Source: an uncultured Saprospiraceae bacterium (GTDB lineage: Bacteria; Bacteroidota; Bacteroidia; Chitinophagales; Saprospiraceae). Taken from it: a DNA stretch of 64,000 nt. Within the stretch, counting starts at the first letter, position 1. Every line of letters begins with the position of its first letter. Below the pieces are notes generated by a model. That model worked only from the letters and a program-made list of their open reading frames with translations, was not told where the DNA came from and ran no database searches. The position numbers and the translations under genes are program-made. Where the stretch lies: contig CALLMH010000003.1 of NCBI GenBank assembly GCA_938007965.1, positions 62,001-126,000 on the forward strand, in the 5' to 3' direction. This document shows, in pieces, positions 58,769-64,000 of this stretch.

Positions 58769-59605
58769 ATGAAAAAGTCTATTTATGTGTGCCTATTGAT
58801 GTGTGTAGGTCTTCTTTCTACGCTCGAAGCACAGATTTCAGAACTAAAGTATCTTATGAATTACAATTGCGAAACCAGTCAATATGATGTGAGTATCAAA
58901 ATAATGGAAGGTTCTGCAAATACAATATTAGATAGAATACAATTCAATAGTCAATTGACGATACTGATACCTACGGGGATGAGTTTTGAGATCGTAGATA
59001 GATATCAACCACTAGAGAATAATCAAACTTATCAAGGAACGGTGCCAAATGGTTGGGCAACATACACACCAATAATAAGTCCAGATGGGCATGAAAAATA
59101 CGATTTTTACAGTGTAGCACCTAAGCTTGCACCTGCATCGTTTTTCAATGATATAGAAGAAGGTGAAGAGATCTGTCTTTTCAGTTTTGCGGTAGATGGT
59201 GAAGAAGAATTTAATGAGCGAATTAGATTTTTTGATAATGAGATAGACAATGATCTTAGTCTATTTGAAGGCGCGGATCTTAGAAATGGTTATTCGATCG
59301 GTGGAGCGGCAGATAAGTATAATGGAAATATCCATCATAATTGTGTGCTATCAGCTGTAACTCAAGTGAGTGATCAGGAAACAAATATCTACCCAAATCC
59401 GACGAACTCAAAAATAAATATCGATGTGACAGAAAATATAAAACATCTAAAAATGATGGATAGCTCTGGTTACATCATCAAAGAAATCATTGACCCTTCG
59501 ATAAGTACATATACGATCGATGTGACAAGGCTTTCAGCCGGGATATACTATATTCAATTGGATAACGGAGGTACTATAAATACCCAACAGTTCGTCGTAT
59601 ATTAA
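58769..59605 (+). CDS. Small secreted protein with type A sorting domain
   Basis: 278 residues. Signal peptide [22 protein letters not shown], then a ~170-residue beta-rich domain with no family resemblance ('[33 protein letters not shown]', '[15 protein letters not shown]'), and a C-terminal type A sorting domain starting at '[15 protein letters not shown]' (about 200-278). A T9SS cargo of unknown function; similar short forms are usual in this phylum. The stop shares TTAA with the oppositely oriented prfC stop. Confidence 0.85.
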
Positions 59606-62197: not shown

Positions 62198-63691
62198 CTA
62201 GTTTAACTGATATCGCACGCCAAAATCTAGTGATACTGAGTGTACTCTATCGAGGTTTGGTCCTAGGCCTTTGGATGAGATGAGGTGACTATATTTAGGT
62301 TCTATGAATAGGCTCGTAGATTCTGATACACTTTTTATCAGTCCCAGACTTACACTAGCAGAGGCATAGAGATTGTCTTTGAGTGAGCCTCCCTGCAGAA
62401 TTCCTAAATTAAATTCTTTTTGACTAAGTAGTGCTCTTTGATTGATTTCGGTTTTTTCAGTTTCTGGTTTGACTTCACTTGGAGATCTAGAGCCTCTTTC
62501 TGCTGGCAGATCATATACTTCGTATTCCGTTTGCGTTATGAGATTTACATCGACTCCAGCTGCGGCATAGAGTTGTAATCTTGGTGTGTTCACGAATGCG
62601 TAGTTGACCCCAATCGGCACATTGAATGTATTGAAACTAATATTCTCAAGACTTGCTTGATTGATTTGTTCATTTTGGTTTTTATAAATCTCTTCTATGA
62701 CCAATGGCTCATAAGACGTCTTACTGTATCCAAGGCCAGCATATAATTCTGCAGGGCCCACTTCTTTATGAATCTTTGCGGTGATATTAAAGTTTGTATT
62801 TAGAGTATTATAAGGATCAATCTCATATACAGGATCGAATGGGGAGTTGATTAGGTTCAACTTTGGTCCTATGGCAAGGCTCACATATGACTTCTCTTCT
62901 GATTTACTTCTCACAGGCCCTAAGGTGATATCAGGATACCCCAATGGCCGCTGCGGTATCAATAATGCGGTAATAGATTTATTATTGATAGCGGTTACCT
63001 CATTTTCAATATTTGATGCTTCTAATTCTATATTCTCATTGTAGTCATTTAGAAACGGGAAGTTATCCTCTATTTTCATCTGTCGCATCGACTCTATATG
63101 AGGCGAATTGATAGGTTCTATCTTAGATGTTTTACTTTTTTCTTGTTGATTTTTCTTGGTTGGTGTTATTGGTGTTTCTGGTATTTTATTATTGGCTGTA
63201 TTGATTGTTTTTGTTTGTTGTTTTGAATGATTTTCTGATTGAAAGTGCTGTATTTCAGAGGTTGATTTATTCGCGGGTACCGCCATGACCATAGGTATAT
63301 CAGTTACGGGGAGTTCGTATATATCATTTTGAATAGGAAGTATATTTAGCACACCAAAGATGACGAAGATTAACATTAGTATTTCTACAGTCTTAGCTAC
63401 GAAGAGTCTTTTTTTGAAGAGGACTTCTGATTCCAGTTGAGTTTTGAGTTTAATCCAGTGGTCGGAGTTGAAAGGCACTCTGAGACCTTTCATGTTTTGT
63501 TTTATTTTAGCATCAAAATGATCGTCAAGGCTTTCGTCGATAGTCTCTTCAGAATTTTCAGGAGAAGGATCAGCGCTGGAGTTGTCATTTTTCCATTTCT
63601 GGCGAAATACCTCCCACCCATCATCAGTGTCTCCACTATTGAGGGCTTCTAGTTTTTTCTTTATAATATCATCGAATTCCTTGTTGTCCAT
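62198..63691 (-). CDS. Candidate dual-membrane-spanning anti-sigma factor (cytosolic domain, TM helix, disordered linker, beta-barrel)
   Basis: 497 residues. Residues 1-90 are charged and contain two related helical units ('FDDIIKKKLEALNSGDTDDGWEVFRQK' region at 6-33 and 'FDAKIKQNMKGLRVPFNSDHWIKLK' region at 59-83), each F-D-x-x-I-K ... W. A single transmembrane helix is at about 98-118. Residues about 120-265 are a disordered linker rich in Asn/Thr/Pro/Lys. Residues about 266-497 form a barrel of probably eight strands ('KSYVSLAIGPKLNL', 'AELYAGLGYSKTS', 'VPIGVNYAFV', 'LYASASVSLGLI', 'VSLDFGVRYQLN'). There is no cleavable signal peptide. ATG follows directly after the stop of the ECF sigma gene. 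This layout matches Dma-type anti-sigma factors, described in Bacteroides, that bind sigma in the cytosol and end in the outer membrane. Confidence 0.75.
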   Translation of the reverse strand: MDNKEFDDIIKKKLEALNSGDTDDGWEVFRQKWKNDNSSADPSPENSEETIDESLDDHFDAKIKQNMKGLRVPFNSDHWIKLKTQLESEVLFKKRLFVAKTVEILMLIFVIFGVLNILPIQNDIYELPVTDIPMVMAVPANKSTSEIQHFQSENHSKQQTKTINTANNKIPETPITPTKKNQQEKSKTSKIEPINSPHIESMRQMKIEDNFPFLNDYNENIELEASNIENEVTAINNKSITALLIPQRPLGYPDITLGPVRSKSEEKSYVSLAIGPKLNLINSPFDPVYEIDPYNTLNTNFNITAKIHKEVGPAELYAGLGYSKTSYEPLVIEEIYKNQNEQINQASLENISFNTFNVPIGVNYAFVNTPRLQLYAAAGVDVNLITQTEYEVYDLPAERGSRSPSEVKPETEKTEINQRALLSQKEFNLGILQGGSLKDNLYASASVSLGLIKSVSESTSLFIEPKYSHLISSKGLGPNLDRVHSVSLDFGVRYQLN

Positions 63692-64000
63692 CTATTTCTC
63701 AAAATCTAAAGCAAGTAAAATATTTTTTAATTTAGTTCTTGCCTTCACTAGATTTGATCTTGAAGTACTTTCTGTGATGCCGAGCATACTGCCCACTTCT
63801 TTGTGAGAGTATCCTTCGATTACATATAGATTAAATACCGATCGATAAGCTGGGGTCAATTGTTGCAATGCCTTCATGATCTCTTGTGTAGTGAGATCGG
63901 AGACAGCATCCGCACCTTTGATTGATTGCCCATAAGCTGTTTCGAGGTTTTCTGTACGTCTTCTTTTGACTTTTCTGTAGTAATCAATAGATGTATTGAT
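63692..64000 (-). CDS. ECF-type RNA polymerase sigma factor, C-terminal part (runs off right edge)
   Basis: 103 codons are visible and the frame is open to the window edge. It includes the end of the region 2-4 linker (starting 'INTSIDYYRKVKRRRTENLE') and a complete region 4: 'LQQLTPAYRSVFNLYVIEGYSHKEVGSMLGITESTSRSNLVKARTKLKNIL', with the helix-turn-helix that recognises the -33-type box. The stop TAG is directly followed by the ATG of the dual-membrane protein, so translation is coupled. By analogy with the sigma/anti-sigma pairs the downstream gene should be its regulator. Confidence 0.93.
   Translation of the reverse strand: MNTSIDYYRKVKRRRTENLETAYGQSIKGADAVSDLTTQEIMKALQQLTPAYRSVFNLYVIEGYSHKEVGSMLGITESTSRSNLVKARTKLKNILLALDFEK

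Follow-up and report, generated by a model that had tools for sequence, protein, structure and literature searches.

A predicted dual-membrane anti-sigma factor with a variable array of cytosolic helical units in a Saprospiraceae-type clade

Introduction

Can a single polypeptide hold an ECF sigma factor in the cytosol and at the same time sense the outer membrane? The question is raised by a gene pair at one end of the window, the whole 64,000-nucleotide stretch of DNA from an uncultured Saprospiraceae bacterium that was analysed here. An earlier note, made from the sequence alone, had read the pair as an ECF sigma factor coupled to a Dma-type protein that spans both membranes. The follow-up analysis makes it very likely that the locus is a sigma/anti-sigma operon whose anti-sigma factor is of the Dma/Reo type and crosses the envelope as one polypeptide; the operon is probably autoregulated, and sensing of the outer membrane seems somewhat probable. 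In Dma/Reo proteins a single chain connects a cytosolic transcription factor with the outer membrane.

Organization of the operon

The sigma gene lies on the minus strand at the window edge, which cuts its ORF. The part inside the window (63692-64000) encodes the C-terminal 102 residues (84-185) of an ECF sigma factor, containing region 4 (PF08281, E 4e-16). In the genome sequence the gene runs on to G000:C3:126249, giving a complete sigma of 185 aa (ORF L003:2193-2750) with a PF04542 match at G000:C3:125959-126165, one of 22 such matches in the genome. No ECF21-named model was found for the sigma fragment among the 25 of 87 NCBIfam matches listed, all of which are generic sigma models.

The anti-sigma gene (62198-63691, minus strand, 497 aa) begins exactly where the sigma gene ends. 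At the junction, GAG AAA TAG ATG, the sigma stop abuts the anti-sigma start as the earlier note had observed, and both are in the same frame. Of 36 other genomes of its family, 32 contain a match to the anti-sigma, and of 23 genomes from other families of its order none does (E <= 0.001). A sigma gene stands directly upstream in 32 of 33 loci, the window's included, the lone miss being at a contig end. Since the protein is this widespread in the family and so regularly preceded by the sigma, the pairing is not due to chance. The two genes overlap or touch in 25 loci of a subset of 39 from the clade described below, with starts called by script. A sigma-Dma fusion of the Dma3 kind was rejected because the in-frame position of the stop is not conserved; the anti-sigma starts in another frame in one of three same-genus relatives. 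The reading of G155 as one open frame of 591 aa was also rejected, the region consisting of two ORFs with a stop between them.

The next ORF downstream of the anti-sigma gene encodes a 189-aa acyltransferase (PF01553), not a TonB-dependent receptor. Past the sigma gene the other strand encodes a hydrolase; a protein that matches no Pfam family and one that bears a type IX sorting domain also lie there. No NigD-like gene was recognised in the four other ORFs closest to the operon, both sides taken together. Within the window, a 278-aa ORF at 58769-59605 carries a type IX secretion sorting domain (PF18962, E 1.4e-10).

Domain architecture of the anti-sigma factor

The 497-residue protein can be assigned with high confidence to the Dma/Reo-type dual-membrane anti-sigma factors, on the basis of its ORF, Pfam matches, AlphaFold model, homologues and adjacency to the sigma. 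The model was made from the window reading frame, comprising sigma residues 84-185 and the whole anti-sigma with the TAG read as serine, and a 38-row alignment (A5). Its mean pLDDT is 66.4 and its pTM 0.43, and the anti-sigma begins with helices at residues 3-18, 24-37, 54-67 and 76-117.

The cytosolic part is predicted to contain two helical units, unit 1 at residues 4-32 (63596-63682, minus strand) and the membrane-proximal unit 2 at residues 57-86 (63434-63523, minus strand). Helices 3-18 and 24-37 correspond to unit 1 (block pLDDT 49-80), and helix 54-67 and the helix from residue 76 onward to unit 2 (block pLDDT 50-75). Both units are thus of low confidence (49-80 over all blocks) in this model, which holds the sigma from residue 84 to 185.

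A single inner-membrane helix follows, with a hydrophobic peak at residues 102-120 (63332-63388, minus strand; hydropathy 2.57), close to the 98-118 of the earlier note; AlphaFold gives one helix from 76 to 117. Six K/R residues fall in the 25 positions before the helix and one in the 25 after it, a bias that points to an N-terminus inside the cell. Basic residues are more numerous before the helix than after it in 57 of the 68 clade proteins, and equal in 10 of 68. The helix leads into a putative periplasmic tether, about residues 121-265 (62897-63331, minus strand), and the disordered linker of about 145 residues that had been read from the sequence agrees with pLDDT values that stay under 50 for almost the whole of residues 118-263 (~146 residues). 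Its commonest residues are N, I, E, P, T, K and S, with six aromatics in 145.

The C-terminal part, about residues 267-496 (62204-62893, minus strand), is predicted to form an 8-stranded outer-membrane barrel. PF13568 matches residues 272-454 marginally (E 3e-6, 27.9 bits against a cut-off of 27). AlphaFold gives eight long strands and one short one over residues 268-496, most of them at pLDDT 87-97, with one loop at pLDDT 39-53. The best Foldseek matches in the PDB are 8-strand barrels of the OmpA/NspA/OmpX type (E down to 2.4e-9), 10-strand barrels being listed too; for NspA (1p4t) the TMt is 0.78 and the rmsd 3.8. An even number of strands places both ends of a barrel in the periplasm, as the layout needs. 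Barrel proteins carry an assembly signal near the C-terminus, and near the C-terminus of this family lies G491, the sole invariant column of a 40-row alignment.

A search of PDB sequences with the anti-sigma gave no match at E <= 1. No FecR domain was detected in the anti-sigma, the Pfam matches at E <= 1 being two barrel families only. The ZAS anti-sigma domain binds zinc through a His/Cys motif, and such a motif is excluded by the lack of any cysteine in the 497 residues.

Relatives and the Saprospiraceae-type clade

When the best 80 loci from a scan with the sigma alignment were taken, about half were from Saprospiraceae or close Bacteroidetes and the others from Chitinophagales, Flavobacteriales, Sphingobacteriales, Cytophagales and Bacteroidales. 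These neighbours point to the lineage of the window. Near-duplicates (L076, L082, L085, L114), fragments (L115, L143) and L049, with no sigma on its contig, were dropped before counting. The sigma tree groups 68 rows, the window's included, in a starred clade, called here Saprospiraceae-type, which bears out the claim of a lineage other than Bacteroides. In the 40 clade anti-sigmas scanned at E <= 0.01, PF13568 was matched in 26 and PF13505 in 15; 14 of the 40 gave no match to PF13568.

Outside the clade the C-terminal parts are often different. Among the 38 non-clade anti-sigmas at the loci taken from that scan, PKD domains occur in 13, the CHU_C type IX secretion domain in 11 and PF13568 in 6. 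L104 is an example with PKD/CHU_C-type C-terminal parts. With one cytosolic unit and one membrane helix, such PKD/CHU_C proteins would be a second possible trans-envelope design, in which the surface is reached by way of type IX secretion. At one locus the gene after a one-unit anti-sigma (L105:7619-8575) has a putative PorP/SprF-like start; inspection by eye of the other 14 loci scanned showed nothing of the kind.

A set from the Bacteroidales order was added, consisting of 20 regions from genomes of Proteiniphilum's order, in which 22 downstream proteins were read. The sigma is matched in 105 of 119 genomes of that order (E <= 1e-25), and PF13568 in 15 of the 22 downstream proteins.

An array of helical units that varies in number

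The helical hairpin was described by a profile (FD..I...L......W..L...L) whose 196 seeds had been chosen by pattern among the scanned proteins themselves. It gave 201 matches at E <= 0.1 and 211 at E <= 1 in 112 proteins; the controls, 112 reversed and 560 shuffled N-terminal parts, gave none and seven respectively. In a run that left the window protein out of the profile, unit 1 was detected at E 8.6e-7 and unit 2 at E 1.8e-9. The claim that the two units are related thus stands by the family profile; direct comparison of one with the other is marginal, 222 of 5000 shuffles scoring as high.

At E <= 0.1 the 68 clade proteins have one unit (8 proteins), two (38), three (17), four (4) or five (1). 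The duplication remarked on in the window protein is thus real, but it is the usual state of the clade (38/68) and not a peculiarity of that protein; the variability is the new point. Among the 38 non-clade proteins from the loci listed the counts are none (3), one (30) and two (5). A unit is detected in 20 of the 22 Bacteroidales-order proteins at E <= 1 and in 18 at E <= 0.1, and two units before the membrane helix in none of the 22. The clade counts look conservative because the largest array, in the 754-residue protein L068:4424-6685, contains, in tandem ahead of the membrane helix, five units at E <= 0.1, seven at E <= 1 and eight by eye.

On a quick sigma tree the number of units changes at least 27 times over 106 rows (shuffled 50.4; L068 entered by eye), a count to which thresholded unit numbers add noise, on a tree with 46 of 103 inner branches open. 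If just the starred branches are counted, fewer changes are required, with a minimum of 9 for the two-unit state. Cytosolic length tracks unit number (r 0.82) and the part after the membrane helix is nearly constant at 408 +/- 27 residues (r 0.23 with unit number). Within a protein, middle units are closer to the first unit (mean BLOSUM 1.87) than they are to the first units of other proteins (1.26), as after local duplication. The core residues are kept in first, middle and last units, and all classes share the same signature.

The hairpin is therefore put forward, from these sequence comparisons, as a profile-detectable unit whose copy number varies from one to about eight in the Saprospiraceae-type clade. 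A literature search on tandem anti-sigma unit arrays found no description; it did not cover the founding Dma and EcfO papers.

Units occur beside other sigmas of the same genome as well. Twenty of its 21 other PF04542 regions were examined and 14 sigma ORFs were recognised with the window sigma as query; three of these stand beside a one-unit partner (L216, E 1e-6; L211, 0.0015; L207, 0.023). The L211 partner is L211:1320-2042, and that of L216 (L216:1427-2761) has a weak barrel match under the cut-off (E 8e-5). L209:1085-2602 shows a unit-like start by eye and has no Pfam match. Because other ECF partners carry the unit, one of them with a weak barrel match, several trans-envelope pairs may coexist in this genome, by analogy with Dma1-3 in B. 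thetaiotaomicron.

A structural model bearing on possible sigma binding

That the cytosolic units hold the sigma is inferred from their homology with the units of the Bacteroidales order. A structural model was obtained with L095, in which sigma and anti-sigma are in frame. The two were folded as one readthrough chain up to the membrane helix (alignment A8, 33 rows), an artificial chain with the sigma present in 13 of the 33 rows. The model has a mean pLDDT of 84.3 and a pTM of 0.69; the blocks of unit 1 are at 78-95 and those of unit 2 at 51-94.

In structure comparisons, whose rows mainly cover model residues 7-184 (VIA-align), the L095 sigma superimposes on SigW bound to RsiW with Z 13.2, 154 residues aligned and an rmsd of 5.0, and on CnrH bound to CnrY with 152 aligned and an rmsd of 6.3. 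Against ECF sigmas bound to RNA polymerase the rmsd is about 21-28. The sigmaE/RseA and AlgU/MucA complexes fit over region 2 only (89-96 residues), with a whole rmsd of about 15-17. The compact shape of the modelled sigma agrees with inhibition, but it could be the AlphaFold default.

A candidate promoter upstream of the sigma gene

Of 67 clade members, 42 carry GCMGC-N16/17-CGTW ahead of the sigma gene, 40 of them with a spacing of 17; the pattern was chosen after viewing the same sequences, some of which are close relatives. Shuffled controls gave a mean of 0.16 (maximum 2) and the opposite strand none. The pattern is missing within 130 bases in the other 25 clade members, and is absent from 22 Bacteroidales-order loci and 36 other loci. 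Conversely G[GA]CAAC-N16-NGTC is present in 4 of the 22 Bacteroidales-order loci and 8 of the 36 others (shuffled means 0.0 and 0.02) and in none of the 67 clade members. The recognition motif of B. fragilis EcfO has been published, according to PMC7366714.

GCMGC-N16/17-CGTW is thus a new candidate ECF-type promoter of the clade's sigma genes. Its conservation before the sigma gene suggests that it is the sigma's own promoter, and hence autoregulation. The distribution of the two patterns suggests that the clade sigma has a changed promoter specificity relative to other orders.

The strict pattern has 17 matches in the window genome, against 26 for a backwards control. Fifteen lie inside ORFs of at least 80 aa, and another is without an ORF of this size within 250 bases. 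The remaining match, 51 bases before the sigma gene of the window operon, is the sole one followed by an ORF within 250 bases. A wider regulon could not be proposed from the strict pattern, the other 16 matches being inside ORFs or without a nearby ORF. Because a single match is linked to an operon, the direct regulon may be narrow, or its other promoters may be more divergent.

Proposed mechanism and alternatives

In the mechanism proposed here the ECF sigma would transcribe its own operon from the GCMGC-N17-CGTW promoter, as the conservation of that pattern suggests, and the cytosolic helical units would keep the sigma at the inner membrane. The single helix would anchor the anti-sigma with its N-terminus inside, the tether of ~146 residues would span the periplasm and the 8-stranded barrel would sit in the outer membrane as the sensor. 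The trigger could be a ligand, or else damage, envelope stress or a barrel whose assembly is lost or fails. Such an outer-membrane change would pass through the tether and free the sigma, presumably raising expression of its own operon; release could occur by an allosteric pull or by proteolysis. That the barrel senses the outer membrane seems somewhat probable, and release without proteolysis rather less likely than not.

The placement of the C-terminal part could be questioned, the protein being instead an ordinary inner-membrane anti-sigma with a soluble periplasmic sensor. The non-clade relatives carry PKD and CHU_C parts more often than PF13568 among the matches listed, as such a layout would have it. 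For the window protein, however, an 8-stranded barrel is the common result of Pfam, AlphaFold and Foldseek, and the soluble C-terminal region that the earlier note had named as the contrary outcome did not appear, which makes this reading highly improbable. With the barrel in place, it and the tether could still serve only to position the protein, a periplasmic protease cutting the tether under envelope stress and an intramembrane protease freeing the units with the sigma, as for RseA. Membrane anti-sigma factors commonly signal through regulated intramembrane proteolysis, a disordered periplasmic stretch of 146 residues is an easy protease target, and the single-helix N-in anchor suits it. 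Loss of Dma or Reo lets the sigma act, but the accessible parts of the papers that report this give no account of the signal route (PMC13088901, PMC9308784, PMC13114119). Regulated proteolysis is a serious contender, short of being the probable one.

The number of units can be read in two ways. Each unit could hold one sigma, so that unit number would set the size of the store and the sharpness of release. This agrees with core residues that are kept in first, middle and last units, with a near-constant length after the helix while cytosolic length tracks unit number, and with the frequent copy-number change and local-duplication pattern of the middle units. One unit is probably enough, since most Bacteroidales-order proteins and 30 of 38 non-clade proteins among the matches listed have just one. 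However, an excess of sigma to be stored is not evident, because one operon encodes both sigma and anti-sigma, and later units may be decayed or structural; one sigma per unit is accordingly a rather doubtful reading. Alternatively a single unit could bind, the extra ones being spacers, oligomerisation parts or binders of another protein. First units are indeed more alike between proteins than last units (mean BLOSUM 1.61 vs 1.37), and in the L095 fusion unit 1 is modelled at higher pLDDT than unit 2 (78-95 vs 51-94), but the order of the fused chain favours unit 1 and all unit classes have the same signature. A single binding unit comes near to an even prospect. In our preferred mechanism, where the units keep the sigma at the inner membrane, the array probably tunes affinity or the number of sigma molecules held.

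The combined proposal, that the clade's Dma anti-sigma is a multivalent sigma store of one to about eight hairpins and that its promoter shifted from GGCAAC-N16-NGTC to GCMGC-N17-CGTW, is speculative and on the unlikely side. If it is true, several sigma molecules could be set free together by one event at the outer membrane. The clade offers natural variants with one to about eight grip units and near-constant tether and barrel length, and its sharply defined candidate promoter could be used as a reporter. Stoichiometry and release mechanism are therefore directly testable.

Comparison with known systems

In the FecI-FecR-FecA system three proteins, including a TonB-dependent receptor, report the state of the outer membrane to an ECF sigma. 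The window system in contrast consists of one polypeptide, with no FecR domain among its Pfam matches. The modelled L095 sigma shares the compact shape of the sigmas in the PDB complexes RsiW-SigW, CnrY-CnrH, NepR-RpoE and RskA-SigK. To our knowledge, none of the anti-sigma factors RsiW, CnrY, NepR and RskA has an outer-membrane barrel.

The closest counterparts are the dual-membrane anti-sigmas of Bacteroides. Dma1/Das1, Dma2/Das2 and Dma3 of Bacteroides thetaiotaomicron were reportedly described by Pardue et al. in 2024, and EcfO/Reo of Bacteroides fragilis is said to go back to Ndamukong in 2013. Like the window operon, the Dma pairs combine an ECF sigma with an N-terminal anti-sigma part, one helix, a tether and a barrel, and in EcfO/Reo the sigma gene precedes that of a large anti-sigma, which is predicted to cross the periplasm and to end in a barrel. 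A Dma protein is defined by an anti-sigma domain at the N-terminus, joined through a transmembrane helix and a long disordered tether to a C-terminal barrel, and lies beside an ECF21 sigma (PMC13088901), and a Dma-like layout is described for Reo of P. vulgatus (PMC9308784, PMC13114119). The precedent given in the earlier note, B. thetaiotaomicron, is sound and can be widened, the Reo type being known from Bacteroides fragilis and Phocaeicola vulgatus (PMC9308784, PMC13114119). EcfO/Reo is proposed there to sense outer-membrane stress (PMC9308784, PMC13114119). NigD genes belong to the EcfO-Reo and Dma1 regulons (PMC13114119, PMC13088901), three nigD genes being in that of P. vulgatus EcfO/Reo (PMC9308784, PMC13114119).

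The window protein differs from Dma1-3 and from Reo, by their descriptions, in its two N-terminal units, its Saprospiraceae-type lineage, its own promoter signature and the lack of a NigD-like gene among the four nearest other ORFs. A locus of the Bacteroidales order, L178, joins the two groups. It has a sigma related to the window's, then a one-unit anti-sigma (unit E 1.3e-7, by a profile trained without L178 but with a few Bacteroidales loci) with a PF13568 barrel (E 1.4e-11), and then a NigD-like gene (PF22221, E 2.9e-26). Because related sigma, one-unit barrel anti-sigma and NigD-like gene are found together at this locus, the window protein probably shares ancestry with the Dma/Reo system in unit, sigma and barrel type. 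The layout that had been proposed, a Dma-type architecture with a sigma partner, is thus supported by the predicted domains and by the sigma upstream in 32 of 33 loci. The trans-envelope Dma/Reo type is already known from Bacteroides, and what appears new here is the variable unit array and the suggested promoter shift.
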